NCBI GenBank assembly: GCA_949297785.1
Contig: CASFTW010000006.1
Span: 1-64,000 of the forward strand
DNA: 64,000 bases
Source of the DNA: an uncultured Spirochaetales bacterium
GTDB lineage: Bacteria > Spirochaetota > Spirochaetia > Sphaerochaetales > Sphaerochaetaceae
Reading direction: 5' to 3'
Below the pieces are notes generated by a model. It was not told the origin of the DNA. It was given only the letters and a program-made list of their open reading frames with translations, and did not search any database. A program made the translations under genes and the position numbers. Numbering within the stretch: the first letter of the stretch is position 1; every line of letters starts with the position of its first letter. Below are positions 15,637-21,863 of the stretch, one piece after another.

Positions 15637-16248
15637 TTAACTGGACTCCACACAAAGTGTGAGAGTTCCCGTTAAACTTGTTCCACCGACCAGGCTGTTC
15701 ACAGTATCCTGTGCACTTTCGTCCGTCTCTATTTTTATGGGAACAGAGAATACCCAAGGTTTCCAAACTCCACTTTCAGTAACATTCCCTGATGAAGACG
15801 AGAATTCTGCCAGAATGTATCCATATTCTTCTGGTGATAAAGATGTTGTCTCTTTAGTGCTTCCCCATTTAATCTCTGCTGTATCTATTCCCTCAGGATT
15901 TCCGCCGAAGCCAATTTTATAGTCAATTCTTGCAGGATCGGTATTGTTTCCAGTCTCATAAAGCGGAGTCCCGTAAATCTTTATCTTTGCAGCACCGACA
16001 TCAAGATTTGAAGAACCGGATGCATAAATCTTCGCATCTCCACTTGTGAAGATATTTCCATTTCCTTCAAGTTCCACAGGTTCGGAGATGGGAACGAAAT
16101 CTTTCTTCCCATTATACTCCTCAGACGTCCATGCAACCTTGGTGTCATCCTGAATGTTGAGAATAACCTGTGCTGTATACTGCTCCGCGAATACACAGGA
16201 GATGGCAAGAACAATAAAAACAGCTGAAAGCAAGATTTTTCTTTTCAT
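15637..16248 (-). CDS. Exported protein, tandem family member 6 (divergent)
   Basis: This 203-residue protein has a signal peptide ending VFA before EQY. It is the last gene of the six-gene array. It keeps the family layout: an early beta-strand (YTAQVILNIQ), a middle block IGFGGNPEG...AEIKW, and a hydrophobic end LTGTLTLCVES. It has lost the W...AGxY signature of its siblings and carries a Ser-rich insertion, so it is the most divergent copy. AGGAGG precedes ATG 16248 by about 11 nt. The function is unknown. Confidence 0.75.
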   Translation of the reverse strand: MKRKILLSAVFIVLAISCVFAEQYTAQVILNIQDDTKVAWTSEEYNGKKDFVPISEPVELEGNGNIFTSGDAKIYASGSSNLDVGAAKIKIYGTPLYETGNNTDPARIDYKIGFGGNPEGIDTAEIKWGSTKETTSLSPEEYGYILAEFSSSSGNVTESGVWKPWVFSVPIKIETDESAQDTVNSLVGGTSLTGTLTLCVESS

Positions 16249-16296
16249 AATCTCATATCCTCCTGTACATCAAGTCTCTTCATTTCAAGCATAAGC

Positions 16297-16974
16297 TCAT
16301 GCACCGGTACTGACTTCCACCTGTATATCCGCAGCATAATCCCCGCTGGGAAGTTCGCTCTGCTGCCATGAAGCTTCAAGTGTTGCAACAAGATTCCCGC
16401 TGATCGGTCCCTGAATGGGAACAACAAGGCGGAAAGAATCATCAGAACTGCTGTCAACCTGAATGATTCCGCGTATTCCGCCACTTCTGCCGGTGATCAG
16501 AGCAGCAGCGTCAGAGGAATATGAGACATCAAGATTACCGAAAGAAATGGGAAGATCGGAATTGGAATTGAGCTGTGAATAATCATCACTCTGCGAAGCA
16601 CGGCTTGTCATGAAACTCCTTGATGTCCTGTTCCAGCCCGTGGTGGAGAATTCAACAGTACAGTTATATTCCGTCGGCTCGTTGCCGTAGTATCTTGCCC
16701 TGAGATAGATTGCGTCGCTTACAGAGCCGAGGTTTTCAACAAAAACTTCAGCCTCATTGGCGTAATACCACTCAGTATTGTTGAGGCTGTATTCAATGAG
16801 AAGATTTCCTACCAGCTCCGCACCTTCCGGTATTTCAACACCAGCCCCCTGAGCCACATTGCTTGACATATGGAGAGTACCGATTGAAGGAGAAGAGGAA
16901 ATCTCATCTGCCGCACTCACAATCGCAACACAGCTCATCGCTATTACCAGAAATGACAAACAAAACTTCTTCAT
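16297..16974 (-). CDS. Exported protein, tandem family member 5
   Basis: This 225-residue protein has a signal peptide ending VSA before ADE. Family landmarks are an N-terminal strand (GTLHMSSNVAQGAGVE), a middle YYGNEPTEYNCTVEFSTTGW and a C-terminal W...PSGDYAADIQVEV. The start at 16974 is chosen for its AGAGG Shine-Dalgarno; an upstream ATG at 16989 overlaps the stop of member 4. I infer an all-beta extracellular domain. I do not recognise a named family. Confidence 0.75.
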   Translation of the reverse strand: MKKFCLSFLVIAMSCVAIVSAADEISSSPSIGTLHMSSNVAQGAGVEIPEGAELVGNLLIEYSLNNTEWYYANEAEVFVENLGSVSDAIYLRARYYGNEPTEYNCTVEFSTTGWNRTSRSFMTSRASQSDDYSQLNSNSDLPISFGNLDVSYSSDAAALITGRSGGIRGIIQVDSSSDDSFRLVVPIQGPISGNLVATLEASWQQSELPSGDYAADIQVEVSTGA

Positions 16975-16985
16975 ATCAAACCTCT

Positions 16986-17675
16986 TCATCCTTCATTCAC
17001 AATGACAACTGAAACATCCGCATTGTAGTTGCCGGCAGGGATACCGTCATTCGGCCATGTCAGCACCGAGTAGGCGATAATCGGTGTCGCCTCACCTTTC
17101 GGATACCCACTTCTCGCTTCAAGTGTTATATATTCAGCCCACGCAGATGCAATCACATTGGAATCCTCAGGATATTTTATTCCATCAACTGTCTGAGATT
17201 CTGCAATAATTGGGAAAGAATAATCATTTCTTTGTCCCTGTAGAATCCAACCATCTCCAGTATCGAACCTCAAACTGATTTTTACCGGTTTTGCAACATT
17301 GGAATCTGCTGCAACATAAATAGTCACTGCGGTATCATCGGGTACATCAGCATCCGCCGAATCCAGCCTGACATACAAATCTTCTTCATTATTCAAAGAC
17401 GATATGTCACTGATACTATAAGCAGAATCATATTCACCAACTGCATATCCTACGTAAATTCTAACACCATCAACTTCATAACCGGGAATATCATCAATTG
17501 AATCCAGTGTACCGCCTCCGTTAGTGACAGAAGAATGCAGTACAATATATCTTCCGTCCATAATCCCAACTGCACCTTCGTTCAGAAGAGAAAGAGATGC
17601 GTATAATGGAAGTGGCATGACAAATAAAAGCAAAAAGAAAATCATCGGGAATTTTTGCATAACTCTTTTATTCAT
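16986..17675 (-). CDS. Exported protein, tandem family member 4
   Basis: This 229-residue protein has a hydrophobic signal segment ending LYA before SLS. It keeps the shared plan: an early strand (YIVLHSSVTNGGG), a middle block VAADSNVAKPVKISLRFDTGDGW and a terminal W...PAGNYNADVSVVIV. It overlaps the frame of member 5 at an ATGA, which supports one transcript. The function is unknown; the predicted location is the periplasm or cell surface. Confidence 0.75.
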   Translation of the reverse strand: MNKRVMQKFPMIFFLLLFVMPLPLYASLSLLNEGAVGIMDGRYIVLHSSVTNGGGTLDSIDDIPGYEVDGVRIYVGYAVGEYDSAYSISDISSLNNEEDLYVRLDSADADVPDDTAVTIYVAADSNVAKPVKISLRFDTGDGWILQGQRNDYSFPIIAESQTVDGIKYPEDSNVIASAWAEYITLEARSGYPKGEATPIIAYSVLTWPNDGIPAGNYNADVSVVIVNEG

Positions 17676-17717
17676 CTTGAATTAACTTCCTACTGTTTAT
17701 TAAAATTCCCGATCATG

Positions 17718-18398
17718 TCATTCCACACCTGGTGAAAATGTCAGTGTTATTGTTGCTGTATATTCATCCGCCTGAATTACGGCACCTGAATTATACCCCC
17801 ATGTAATGCCGTGAGCTGCAGCTACAATAACAGTTTGCTGTATGTTTTCACCATAAAATACTATATCCGTATCAGATGTGCCAGCTGACGCATAATACGA
17901 AGAATTCTGTTCGACACCAATGCTCCGCACTGGAGTAATATATAATTTATCTTTCGTTGTACCTTCTGTCCATTCTGCAGAAATTGAAACAGAAACTTCT
18001 GCCTTCTCCCCATCCGGAACATTTCCCCATATACCATAATTGATTGTAAGTGAATCTATTCCTTCATCCGAGGTATGCATTAAATCAATATCTGCATAAC
18101 TCAGAGAATCCTCTGATGTTGTTATTTTATCATTCAATGTATCCCACGAAGATGTAATTTCCGGTGCAACATATGACAATACATTTCCTGTTGCATTTTT
18201 ATCTGTTTTAGTCTCGACCCTTGCAACAACATTCAACCCGTTTACATTGATAATTACTTCATCCTGAGAAACAGGAGGATTGACTATTGTCCCAGCCGCA
18301 ACATTACCAGTAATCAGGACATTCCTTGAAGTCGCATCAGCGAAAAGAAAACCGGCAAATAGCATAAATACCATAAAAATTAGAATAATTCTTTTCAT
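17718..18398 (-). CDS. Exported protein, tandem family member 3
   Basis: This 226-residue protein has a signal peptide ending LFA before DAT. Landmarks are an N-terminal strand (NVLITGNVAAGTIV), a middle YGIWGNVPDGEKAEVSVSISAEW and a terminal W...QADEYTATITLTF. The start is ATG 18398, with ATG 18404 as an alternative and only a weak Shine-Dalgarno. The region is visibly richer in A+T than the housekeeping genes nearby. The function is unknown. Confidence 0.75.
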   Translation of the reverse strand: MKRIILIFMVFMLFAGFLFADATSRNVLITGNVAAGTIVNPPVSQDEVIINVNGLNVVARVETKTDKNATGNVLSYVAPEITSSWDTLNDKITTSEDSLSYADIDLMHTSDEGIDSLTINYGIWGNVPDGEKAEVSVSISAEWTEGTTKDKLYITPVRSIGVEQNSSYYASAGTSDTDIVFYGENIQQTVIVAAAHGITWGYNSGAVIQADEYTATITLTFSPGVE

Positions 18399-18426
18399 AA
18401 TCACTGATTTATATTTTACTTTTTGA

Positions 18427-19095
18427 CTATTCCTTAGAATCTACTGTAATCGTCACAGTAGAACTGTAATCACCAGCATCCAGCTGAGTTGATCCGTCAT
18501 AACTCCACTTAATCAGAGAATAGCCGACAAGCTGTACTTCCTTCTGCTGACCTGCCGCATGGGATATTGTGAATCCACATTCCGAAGCTTTGCCGTTTGC
18601 GTCACTCCCCGATATATCCGAAACAGATATTTTTGATGAAGTTTCTTCAGACAAAGCATCGCCTGCCGTACACCATATATCCAATCCGTCAACTGCAGAC
18701 TCTCCTTCTACTGCACCATATGAACCTTTATACCATCCGTCAACTTTGAACCTGATATCTGTTTTGATTTCTTTCACAGGGTTGCCATTTACACCAACGA
18801 GAATAAAAAAGCTATCAACCCCGCCATCAACCTCAGATACCAGATTTGCAATGATTGGATTACTGTTTTCAGACATAATAAAAGATCCATCCGAAGAATC
18901 CCCCCACCCCGAAGGCACACTCTCTCCTAGATACGTTTTAAGATATATATAAACACCTTCTCCACCTGAAATGGAATTATCATTATCAACTCCATATCCG
19001 GGCTCAACTGTTGTTTTCACCAAGAGAGTATCTGTCTGGTCAGCATATAATATGAAACTCAACATCAAAACAAGAACAAAAAGTACTTTTTTCAT
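18427..19095 (-). CDS. Exported protein, tandem family member 2
   Basis: This 222-residue protein has a signal peptide ending LYA before DQT. Landmarks are the strand LLVKTTVEPGYGVD (close to member 1), the middle VGVNGNPVKEIKTDIRFKVDGW and the terminal W...DAGDYSSTVTITV. Two Cys residues (IWCTAGD and SECGF) could form a disulphide after export. ATG 19095 is preceded by GAGAT; an in-frame ATG at 19116 is possible. The function is unknown. Confidence 0.75.
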   Translation of the reverse strand: MKKVLFVLVLMLSFILYADQTDTLLVKTTVEPGYGVDNDNSISGGEGVYIYLKTYLGESVPSGWGDSSDGSFIMSENSNPIIANLVSEVDGGVDSFFILVGVNGNPVKEIKTDIRFKVDGWYKGSYGAVEGESAVDGLDIWCTAGDALSEETSSKISVSDISGSDANGKASECGFTISHAAGQQKEVQLVGYSLIKWSYDGSTQLDAGDYSSTVTITVDSKE

Positions 19096-19170
19096 GTCAG
19101 ATCTCAATATCTTCATTGTCATATATGCAGGAGAAATACAGTGTAATCTCCTGCATAAAGCATGCCTGTG

Positions 19171-19920
19171 CTATTCATTCACTGCAATATCAATTGCAAT
19201 TGTAGCCTGATAATCACCAGCCTGCGGTTTTGTATCCTGAGCCCAGCTGACCATTGTCAACGCTGTAAGAATACTCTTTCCATTTGTGTTGGTAACAGCT
19301 TCTGCATTAAAATTTATTGCCTGAGAAGCAGCGGTGGTGACTACACCTTCTACAACACCTGCAGCCGTCGCTTCTTGAGCTGATACGGTAATTATATCAG
19401 TCTCGTCACTCCCTTTGACATTCTGAGTAGTTGTGGAAAATACAACAGGAATATCATGTTTGTCTGTAGCAGAGCCATCCTCCATCAGAGCCCATCCTTC
19501 ACTTGAATATGTTACAGTAACATCTGGTGTACCGCCCTCAGGGACATTGCTTCCCGTATAAACATAGATAGCAATCGAATCTGCGGCATCAGTAGCTGTA
19601 CCATCAAGGTCAAATCCCTTCGAATAGTTCTCATCAACCTGACCTTTCGCAATCGGCCTCAAGTCAATGGCGGATTCACTACCTAATTTATATTTTGTAG
19701 ATGTTCCAAAGACAGGTTCCCAATAAATATACCCGACAAGGTTGTCATCATTGAAATCAGGGCCATCATCCTCAATAGGAGCATCAGGATCTACCGAAGG
19801 ATCTTCTATTTCACCGCTTCCTTCTACTGTAGTCTTCAAGACAATTGAGCTATAACTTTCAGCATACACAAAACCTGCACACATCAGAAATGCCATTAAA
19901 ACAATTAAACCTTTCTTCAT
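19171..19920 (-). CDS. Exported protein, tandem family member 1
   Basis: This 249-residue protein is the first and longest of the array, with a signal peptide ending VYA before ESY. Landmarks are IVLKTTVEGSGEI, then an acidic insertion (DPDAPIEDDGPDFNDD), the middle VYTGSNVPEGGTPDVTVTYSSEGW and the terminal W...QAGDYQATIAIDIAV. GGAGGG precedes ATG 19920. Its promoter region carries three copies of a shared element (19978-20104). No chaperone, usher, sortase or pilus assembly gene is adjacent. Confidence 0.8.
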   Translation of the reverse strand: MKKGLIVLMAFLMCAGFVYAESYSSIVLKTTVEGSGEIEDPSVDPDAPIEDDGPDFNDDNLVGYIYWEPVFGTSTKYKLGSESAIDLRPIAKGQVDENYSKGFDLDGTATDAADSIAIYVYTGSNVPEGGTPDVTVTYSSEGWALMEDGSATDKHDIPVVFSTTTQNVKGSDETDIITVSAQEATAAGVVEGVVTTAASQAINFNAEAVTNTNGKSILTALTMVSWAQDTKPQAGDYQATIAIDIAVNE

Positions 19921-19977
19921 TTTTACATCTCCCTCCAATCAGAGATCAATAAGATTTATTTTCCTTCGTATCGCTAT

Positions 19978-20246: not shown

Positions 20247-20873
20247 TCAGCGTCTCCACTCCCGCAGAGGATTCAGCCTCATCCTTATGAGGATGTAAAG
20301 CAGACCGAAGACAAGTCCGAAAAGATGTGTCATATGGGCAACTCCGTCAAAAGACATCATGCCAGAGAACAATTCAATCACAAAATAAAGGATTATGAGA
20401 ACGGGCGCCGGTACCGGGATAATACCGAAAACATATATGACGGCACGCGGGTAAAGCACTGAAAACAGCATGAGAAGCGCATAAATGGCACCCGAAGCTC
20501 CCAGGAGAACCACATTGGTATTCGCAAGATAATAAACACCGTAGCTTGCAAGACCGCAGAGCGTTCCGGTCAGCATGTAATAAAGAAGGAATTCCTTGCT
20601 GCCCACTCTTCTTTCAACTGCCGTGCCGAATATATAAAGGGAAAGCATGTTGAAAAGCAGATGGCTTATCGAACCGTGAGTGAACATGTATGTGACAAAC
20701 TGCCAGTATGAATGTCCGTAGTAAACTGAGCTCGGAACAAGGGCAAGTGTGCATGTCAGACGCGGGAAGAGAAAATAAGTGAGACAGAATACGGCGATGT
20801 TGAGGGCAACCAGTATTGCAGTCACATTATTATATGTATAGACAAACTTCCGGTTGATGATTGTATTTTTCAT
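20247..20873 (-). CDS. Rhomboid-family intramembrane serine protease
   Basis: This 208-residue protein has about six transmembrane helices. The catalytic serine is in GASG (Ser127) and the partner histidine in AHMTHLFG (His183), on separate helices as in active rhomboids. HGSISHLLFNM is the conserved His/Asn segment of helix 2. It should cleave membrane-anchored substrates within the bilayer; the substrate is unknown. The start at ATG 20873 (MKNTII) is preferred to an upstream frame extension. The upstream side faces the small-RNA region. Confidence 0.9.
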   Translation of the reverse strand: MKNTIINRKFVYTYNNVTAILVALNIAVFCLTYFLFPRLTCTLALVPSSVYYGHSYWQFVTYMFTHGSISHLLFNMLSLYIFGTAVERRVGSKEFLLYYMLTGTLCGLASYGVYYLANTNVVLLGASGAIYALLMLFSVLYPRAVIYVFGIIPVPAPVLIILYFVIELFSGMMSFDGVAHMTHLFGLVFGLLYILIRMRLNPLREWRR

Positions 20874-20919: not shown

Positions 20920-20952
20920 TTTCACACTGTGAAATTTTTTCACACCTGAAAA
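20920..20952 (+). promoter_or_regulatory. Twin palindromes upstream of the sigma-54 promoter, candidate enhancer site
   Basis: TTTCACACTGTGAAA (20920-20934, a perfect 7-1-7 palindrome) is followed at once by TTTTCACACCTGAAAA (20937-20952, TTTTCA and TGAAAA arms). They lie about 60-95 nt upstream of the predicted start of the first small RNA, a usual place for a bacterial enhancer-binding protein. The regulator is not in the window. Confidence 0.5.
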
Positions 20953-20987: not shown

Positions 20988-21005
20988 TTGGCATGGTCTT
21001 TGCAT
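20988..21005 (+). promoter_or_regulatory. Sigma-54 (RpoN) type promoter 1
   Basis: TTGGCATGGTCTTTGCAT matches the -24/-12 consensus TTGGCACG-N4-TTGCA. The GG (20990-20991) and GC (21002-21003) are separated by exactly 10 nt. It points rightward and predicts a start near 21015. Confidence 0.85.
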
Positions 21006-21014
21006 ATAGATTTG

Positions 21015-21090
21015 TACAGAGCAACAAGTTTTTTTCAACCTCCTTTTAGTGTGAAATATCAGGCATCCGGAGCTCCCGGATGCCTCTTTT
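21015..21090 (+). ncRNA. Predicted small RNA 1 with anti-Shine-Dalgarno hairpin loop
   Basis: A transcript of about 75 nt is expected between the sigma-54 promoter and a terminator. The 5' part (ACAGAGCAACAAG) is shared with small RNA 2. Next, TTTCA (21033-21037) and TGAAA (21052-21056) form a short stem whose loop displays CCTCCTTTT, complementary to a strong Shine-Dalgarno sequence. The RNA ends in a perfect 10-bp terminator stem (AGGCATCCGG / CCGGATGCCT, 21061-21085) followed by CTTTT. No open frame with a ribosome site is present. It probably acts by blocking translation starts. Ends are approximate. Confidence 0.75.
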
Positions 21091-21106
21091 ATTATTCCTC
21101 GTGTGT

Positions 21107-21124
21107 TTGGCATGGCTTTTGCTT
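21107..21124 (+). promoter_or_regulatory. Sigma-54 (RpoN) type promoter 2
   Basis: TTGGCATGGCTTTTGCTT again has GG (21109-21110) and GC (21121-21122) 10 nt apart. It lies just after the terminator of small RNA 1 and predicts a start near 21134. Confidence 0.85.
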
Positions 21125-21133
21125 ATATTTTTG

Positions 21134-21234
21134 CATAGAGCAACAGTTTTTCATGCCTCCTTTGTATGAAAAATAAAACTTGTGCCGGACGGCCCTCTCT
21201 CCCACCCCAATTTATTCCGCCCGGCACTTTTTTT
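21134..21234 (+). ncRNA. Predicted small RNA 2, sibling of small RNA 1
   Basis: A transcript of about 100 nt is expected. After the shared 5' end (ATAGAGCAACAG), an 8-bp perfect stem TTTTTCAT (21147-21154) / ATGAAAAA (21166-21173) exposes an 11-nt loop GCCTCCTTTGT, complementary to ACAAAGGAGGC. The terminator stem is GTGCCGG.CGG / CCG.CCGGCAC (21182-21227) with a pyrimidine-rich 24-nt loop and seven T. Promoter, 5' end, hairpin and terminator all follow the order of small RNA 1, so the two arose by duplication. rlmE begins 30 nt downstream. Confidence 0.78.
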
Positions 21235-21263
21235 ATTCTCCCGTTGCTGATAATATTTTTCAC

Positions 21264-21863
21264 ATGGCAACAAGCAGAAGAGACAAAGCAGATTCATATA
21301 CCCAGAAAGCACACAGAGAAGGTTACCCCGCACGTTCGGTATATAAGCTTGAGGAGATCAATGCTTCCCATCATTTGATCAAGCCGGGTGACAGCGTGCT
21401 TGATGTCGGTGCAGCGCCCGGTTCCTGGACTCTTTATGTTCACAGGGCGCTCATCAAGGGAAAGGGAAAGATTGTCTCATGTGATCTCAATCCGCTCAGG
21501 CTTGATCCCGTGCCACCTACCGTGATTGAAATAACAGGCGATGCCTTCAGCAGGGAAATAAGGGCACGCCTTGTTGAGGAAGGTCCTTATGACTGCATAA
21601 TATCGGATGCAGCACCGATGACAACAGGAAACAGAACAGTGGACACTTCAAGATCAGAGTATCTTGCCGAGCAGGTTGTTTTTCTGGCAGAAGAACAGCT
21701 TGCACAGCACGGCAATCTTGTCCTCAAGATATTCCAGGGAGGAGGACAGGAGGAAATACTTAAAAAGATGCGGACGCTCTTCAGAAAGGCAAAGGCTTTC
21801 AAGCCCAAAGCATGCAGGGATGACAGCTTTGAAATCTATCTGATTGGATTAGACAAGAATTAA
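21264..21863 (+). CDS. rlmE: 23S rRNA 2'-O-methyltransferase RlmE (FtsJ)
   Basis: This 199-residue SAM-dependent methyltransferase acts on U2552 of 23S rRNA (E. coli numbering) late in 50S assembly. The SAM loop is LDVGAAPGSW, and the K-D-K-E tetrad is present at Lys28 (SVYKL), Asp115 (SDAAP), Lys155 (LKIFQG) and Glu190 (SFEIYL). ATG 21264 begins the canonical N-terminus; an open extension to 21180 is just the terminator of small RNA 2. Transcription may come partly from read-through of that terminator. Confidence 0.93.
   Translation: MATSRRDKADSYTQKAHREGYPARSVYKLEEINASHHLIKPGDSVLDVGAAPGSWTLYVHRALIKGKGKIVSCDLNPLRLDPVPPTVIEITGDAFSREIRARLVEEGPYDCIISDAAPMTTGNRTVDTSRSEYLAEQVVFLAEEQLAQHGNLVLKIFQGGGQEEILKKMRTLFRKAKAFKPKACRDDSFEIYLIGLDKN

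Follow-up and report, generated by a model that had tools for sequence, protein, structure and literature searches.

A stretch of 64,000 nucleotides from an uncultured spirochaete (the window) contains, on its plus strand at 20988–21236, two head-to-tail units, each made up of a promoter, a predicted RNA and a terminator. They are flanked by a divergent gene for a rhomboid-family intramembrane protease (20247–20870, minus strand; Rhomboid domain, E = 7 × 10−34) and by rlmE/ftsJ, a gene of the 23S rRNA methyltransferase family (21264–21863, plus strand; FtsJ domain, E = 2 × 10−41). The locus raises the question of whether the two units encode regulatory small RNAs (sRNAs) and, if so, what switches them on and what they act on. 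Post-transcriptional control in spirochaetes is, to our knowledge, little known outside Borrelia and Leptospira. The reading that we favor, and hold to be probable, is that the units encode two sibling anti-Shine-Dalgarno (anti-SD) sRNAs that act in trans, are activated through an enhancer, do not depend on Hfq, occur in multiple copies and repress translation, and that they belong to a family confined to one spirochaete order.

Architecture and folding of the two units

The initial annotation of the locus described a GG-N10-GC promoter before each unit, and both promoters are indeed exact matches to the −24/−12 consensus, of the form TTGGCATGN4TTGCW and correctly spaced from the 5' end of the RNA: TTGGCATGGTCTTTGCA at 20988–21004, which is kept in relatives, and TTGGCATGGCTTTTGCT at 21107–21123. 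Judged by its spacing from the −12 element, transcription of unit 1 would start at 21015, which gives a predicted transcript of about 80 nt (21015–21096); the transcript predicted for unit 2, about 100 nt (21134–21236), is supported by covariance-model matches across the order. The near-identical 5' ends reported before are borne out by the motif AGAGCAACA, common to both units and located by alignment at 21018–21026 and 21137–21145. The anti-SD core CCUCCUU, recognized by its conservation and its probability of being unpaired, lies at 21039–21045 in unit 1 and at 21156–21162 in unit 2. Elsewhere in the window (15637–19938, minus strand), five open reading frames of about 200–255 aa follow one another; their starts resemble signal peptides, sequence patterns recur among them, and they appear to be a tandem cluster of paralogues encoding secreted proteins.

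Both units end in a strong intrinsic terminator with a stem and a U-rich tail, as claimed. Terminator 1 (21061–21096) consists of a 10-bp stem at 21061–21085 and the tail, and in an alignment of 11 sequences double changes occur in 8 of its 9 modelled pairs. Terminator 2 (21182–21236) has an 11-bp stem (21182–21192 paired with 21217–21227) followed by a U-tract at 21228–21235; double changes affect all 12 of 12 pairs among 90 distinct sequences, and the covariation score is 0.530, compared to 0.132 in shuffled and at most 0.147 in slid controls. Its long loop carries a C/U-rich motif, CCTCTCTCCCACCCCA / CCUCUCUCCCACCCCA, at 21194–21209; the form CCUCUCUCCCACCCCA is kept across many genera and could offer G-rich sequences a second site for pairing.

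Compared with shuffled sequences, both units fold more stably than expected (z = −3.5 for unit 1 and −4.5 for unit 2). The claim of a hairpin exposing the anti-SD sequence in its loop holds for unit 2, where the hairpin spans 21146–21174 (−9.4 kcal/mol, z = −2.6), but not for unit 1, which lacks a stable hairpin: there the folding excess is due to the terminator, and the loop hairpin by itself has little stability (−2.3 kcal/mol, z = +0.7). Across 110 units the core is predicted to be predominantly single-stranded, with a mean probability of 0.84 compared to 0.52 for the whole RNA and 0.72 in a control with shuffled flanks. In the same set the core stays invariant and the flanks differ, and no adjacent position is equally conserved save for a U-run; the flanks are conserved within each genus but not across genera. 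The motifs that are both conserved and unpaired are CCUCCUU and CUCUCUCCCACCCC.

Distribution in the order and predicted sigma-54 control

Within the genus, searching at the DNA level recovered the locus from 15 of 16 genomes, mostly with both units; only a single fused unit, combining the anti-SD hairpin with the C-rich terminator, was seen in three genomes (L012, L014, L016). Homologues of unit 1 occur elsewhere in the genus and across the order as a whole, and a covariance-model search with unit 2 matched 118 of 139 genomes in 16 of the 22 genera of the order, including Sphaerochaeta, Bullifex, Ornithospirochaeta and their relatives. Genomes carry one to four copies, usually between the rhomboid and rlmE genes, and the rhomboid gene is the divergent neighbor in 62 of the 74 loci with enough room to tell. 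In a sample of the wider phylum the covariance model found no credible member outside the order. Two weak matches there (G327, G333) had neither the 5' motif nor the promoter and were rejected, and pattern matches in non-spirochaetes such as L140 and L159, also without a promoter, were taken as chance.

The −24/−12 element is present in 89 of 92 matches. In a separate sample of 54 matches, which is less biased than the set of 92 in that it was fetched by covariance-model score and not by the core motif, 47 have the promoter and 53 have CCTCCTT. Both units recur with promoter, 5' motif and core, and with terminators that are unrelated in sequence yet covary; recurrence of both units throughout the order with covarying stems is far beyond chance. 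The initial annotation had staked its proposal on conservation of promoter, loop and terminator in relatives, and this conservation extends across the order. Longer arrays occur at two loci. L250 (G093) has four sRNA copies in tandem and L251 (G090) has three; every copy is preceded by a sigma-54 promoter of its own, and at L250 also by a separate TTTCACA-type half-site upstream.

Six of the seven exceptions to the promoter are unit-2 copies of a single Ornithospirochaeta clade (L256–L260, L262) in which the sigma-54 promoter is gone. Repeated TGTTGAT marks a conserved upstream element acquired by most unit-2 copies of this clade, and AGAGCAA and CCTCCTT have been retained. A change of promoter with retention of the RNA motifs indicates selection on the RNA itself, the motifs being kept as RNA and not as parts of the promoter. 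The clade also bears on the suggestion that the copies are redundant or additive: they are not simply redundant, as unit 2 has the additional C/U-rich terminator loop and is the only unit with a rewired promoter in this clade. Altogether, the two units almost certainly represent a real, conserved family of sigma-54-driven sRNAs.

Components for such control are encoded in the genome. The presence of rpoN, which had been listed as a point to check, is confirmed for the genome of the window, and the gene was found in 136 of the 139 genomes of the order. Control by an enhancer-binding protein had also been proposed, and the window's genome encodes four such proteins that are available to serve the promoters. 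By its promoters, by rpoN and by the enhancer-binding proteins, the family probably falls in the class of sigma-54-dependent sRNAs. The promoters themselves are rare: the 2.22-Mb genome has no more than four exact matches to TTGGCAYRN4TTGCW, two of which are those of the units.

Upstream of unit 1, at 20920–20944 (no strand assigned), lies a candidate enhancer (upstream activating sequence) composed of two overlapping dyads, TTTCACA-C-TGTGAAA and TGTGAA-N5-TTCACA. This palindromic site and the C/U-rich motif in the terminator-2 loop are two elements that the initial annotation had overlooked. The 17-bp dyad TGTGMA-N5-TKCACA has a single exact match genome-wide, at 20928–20944, some 50 bp ahead of the first promoter, and with at most one mismatch it precedes 64 of the 89 distinct homologous loci, compared to 0.33 in dinucleotide shuffles.

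Other predicted sigma-54 targets in the window's genome are two hsp20 genes, two pspA genes and one gene for a sigma-70-family factor, with predicted promoters at L045, L047, L023, L043 and L020, so that the rest of the sigma-54 set looks like a response to membrane and protein-folding stress. None of these pspA, hsp20 and sigma-factor genes is preceded by a dyad of the type found at the RNA locus, and the RNA pair therefore appears to have its own separate activator. The hsp20 and sigma-factor genes have a common, different upstream motif, around GTATCAGAATGAC / GTGTCATTCTGA, which suggests a second enhancer-binding protein. A candidate activator of the RNAs is the NtrC-type regulator at C3:42626–43975, which is nearly ubiquitous in the order; no close orthologue of it was found in G002 and G042, both of which carry the RNA. 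Another sigma-54 activator, of 363 aa (L052:232–1323, minus strand), lacks both a receiver domain and a domain for DNA binding according to Pfam and may act from solution.

Proposed anti-Shine-Dalgarno pairing and its alternatives

CCUCCUU is the anti-SD sequence of the 16S rRNA tail and the complement of the strong SD sequence AAGGAGG. From this complementarity we infer, as the initial annotation did, that the RNAs could block AAAGGAGG-type translation starts. Predicted duplexes with AAGGAGG-led starts range from −12 to −20 kcal/mol, compared to about −8 kcal/mol for rlmE, which has no SD. None of 41 genomes has a match to the Hfq family PF17209, although the E. coli and B. subtilis controls match, and the family accordingly lies outside the class of Hfq-dependent sRNAs. 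Complementarity to the unit-2 loop extending beyond the core gave 122 matches genome-wide compared to 93 in a reversed control, few of them at start codons, and complementarity to the C-rich terminator loop gave 44 matches in this genome compared to 61 in the reversed control, i.e., no enrichment. Since extended matches are about as many as in the reversed control, they identify no specific target. Repression by anti-SD pairing is reasonably likely.

The distribution of AAGGAGG start sites was surveyed in genome samples of about 0.4–0.46 Mb each, with gene starts assigned by a crude rule and polytopic membrane genes defined as having at least four transmembrane segments. In the window's genome such start sites are rare (17 of 378 sampled genes, about 4%), and 8 of these 17 precede polytopic membrane genes, compared to 41 of 361 elsewhere (odds ratio 6.9, p = 4.5 × 10−4). 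The same bias is significant in other species of the genus (6 of 15, p = 0.002) and in another genus (5 of 13, p = 0.005); a Sphaerochaeta sample points in the same direction with a weaker, non-significant excess (3 of 9). Pooling of the four samples, all from sRNA-bearing genomes, yields 22 of 54 compared to 6.8 expected (exact p = 7 × 10−8), where the genomes are related and the samples not phylogenetically independent. Two spirochaetes without the RNA showed no significant AAGGAGG membrane excess (3 compared to 1.8). Somewhat different strong SD motifs carry a mild membrane bias in these RNA-free spirochaetes, and the bias may therefore partly be a general trait.

The enrichment of AAGGAGG in polytopic membrane proteins suggests a role of the RNAs in membrane stress, as does the presence of pspA and hsp20 in the predicted sigma-54 regulon. 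On the other hand, hsp20 is itself AAGGAGG-led, and its control by the same sigma factor would be counter-intuitive for a pure repressor and counts against the model. We put forward the membrane-stress role only tentatively.

Several features of the locus would also suit RNAs that sequester a protein, with the C/U-rich core and the C-rich terminator loop titrating an RNA-binding protein (of KH-domain, cold-shock or S1 type) in the way CsrB and RsmY act toward CsrA. There are several C/U-rich motifs per locus, the RNAs are multicopy and activator-controlled, the flanks of the core are not conserved across genera and Hfq is absent. Each RNA, however, has just one or two motifs; the motif is the exact anti-SD sequence and not the GGA of CsrA decoys, and the multiple GGA loops of CsrB/RsmY-type RNAs are missing; the invariant 7-mer is also very well suited to base pairing with the SD. 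We consider a decoy function unlikely.

Invariance confined to the 7-nt core, the lack of extended specific targets and the presence of up to four copies could alternatively reflect an untargeted RNA that acts as a mimic of the 16S tail and depresses SD-dependent initiation across the board during stress. Against this stand flanks that are conserved within each genus, and the scarcity and membrane bias of AAGGAGG starts mean that even an unselective core would not act on all genes. Such a general brake on translation seems to us quite improbable.

The position of rlmE directly downstream in 52 of the 65 loci with enough room invites the question of whether the RNA is a cis-acting leader or attenuator of this gene. 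Both units come with a separate promoter and terminator, and in most loci rlmE has a −10-like box about 10 nt before its ATG and no evident SD; in the window this box, of the TATAGT type, lies at 21250–21256 (region 21248–21266), directly after the sRNA terminator. The RNA is moreover retained where rlmE is inverted or at least about 1 kb distant (L103, L105, L111, L170, L172). Given the separate box of rlmE and the persistence of the RNA without an adjacent rlmE, we rejected the leader as very improbable. The rlmE mRNA is apparently leaderless in most of the order, and it would then escape an anti-SD RNA. A seven-codon frame in unit 2 (ATGCCTCCTTTGTATGAAAAATAA, MPPLYEK), open in the window and in a few close relatives, was rejected as a peptide and has next to no chance of being one, as other congeneric species and other genera have lost its ATG or its stop and no SD precedes it.

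Under the favored reading of trans-acting anti-SD repressors, a dedicated enhancer-binding protein at the 20920–20944 dyad would activate the sigma-54 polymerase at both promoters. Each RNA would stop at its own intrinsic terminator and expose the unpaired CCUCCUU, which without Hfq would pair in vivo with AAGGAGG-type ribosome-binding sites and block initiation of translation. Repression would fall on the mRNAs with the strongest SD, disproportionately those of transporters and other polytopic membrane proteins, and two to four copies would raise the dose. These results lead us to speculate, with considerable doubt, that in an order lacking Hfq, enhancer-switched, multicopy, soluble anti-SD RNAs brake strong-SD membrane mRNAs under membrane or folding stress, with SD strength serving as the tag and leaderless rlmE exempt. 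If SD strength does define the regulon, a functional class of genes, the transporters, would be silenced by a seven-nucleotide seed without a chaperone.

Relation to known sRNA systems

The view that no family of this kind had been described is upheld: the region scores below the gathering thresholds of Rfam 15, and the open literature searched yielded neither a description of the family nor any report of sigma-54-driven multicopy sRNAs in the phylum. The family is Hfq-independent and extends through an entire order. Its promoter class is clear, its pairing element explicit and a candidate enhancer site at hand, which makes both its control and its mechanism directly testable.

Among sigma-54-dependent sibling sRNAs, Vibrio Qrr1–5 and the enterobacterial GlmY/GlmZ have conserved cores and are controlled by enhancer-binding proteins; they are Hfq-dependent or RapZ-dependent and do not act through anti-SD loops. 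The spirochaete RNAs share the sigma-54-dependent sibling arrangement but differ in sequence and targets, and the Rfam models of Qrr and GlmY/GlmZ do not match at gathering score. MicA and RybB of the sigma-E response use Hfq and a 5'-end seed to target outer-membrane proteins. If our reading is correct, the spirochaete RNAs would parallel this repressive arm of the enterobacterial sigma-E response, in that a sigma factor which can only activate would gain a repressive arm through sRNAs that stop the synthesis of envelope proteins.

Pairing without a chaperone and the resulting block of initiation are read here as they are for the csRNAs of streptococci (PMC3091779) and for LhrC of Listeria (PMC4132741). 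LhrC1–5 are multicopy sRNAs under an envelope-stress two-component system, whose CU-rich loop sites pair with SD regions and which do not require Hfq (PMC4132741). The multiple copies, the CU-rich anti-SD sites and the independence of Hfq are common to both families, but LhrC uses a UCCC motif at three sites per RNA and is not driven by sigma-54 (PMC4132741); the LhrC model RF00616 matches only below threshold (22.5 bits compared to a gathering score of 110, E = 0.38). The csRNAs belong to the CiaRH regulon, with five in S. pneumoniae, and are about 90–150 nt long (PMC3091779, PMC8186281). Like the spirochaete RNAs they are multicopy siblings under one regulator, with an anti-SD sequence left unpaired, a short conserved stretch close to the 5' end whose role is not known, and an intrinsic terminator (PMC3091779, PMC8186281). 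They differ in being activated by CiaR, as opposed to −24/−12 promoters served by sigma-54 and an enhancer, and in placing the anti-SD sequence between two stem-loops, usually together with an anti-start codon (PMC3091779, PMC8186281); they also belong to another phylum, and no sequence relation was detected. The spirochaete RNA belongs to none of the csRNA, LhrC and Qrr families, and is best described as an RNA that works like a csRNA without being a member of that group.
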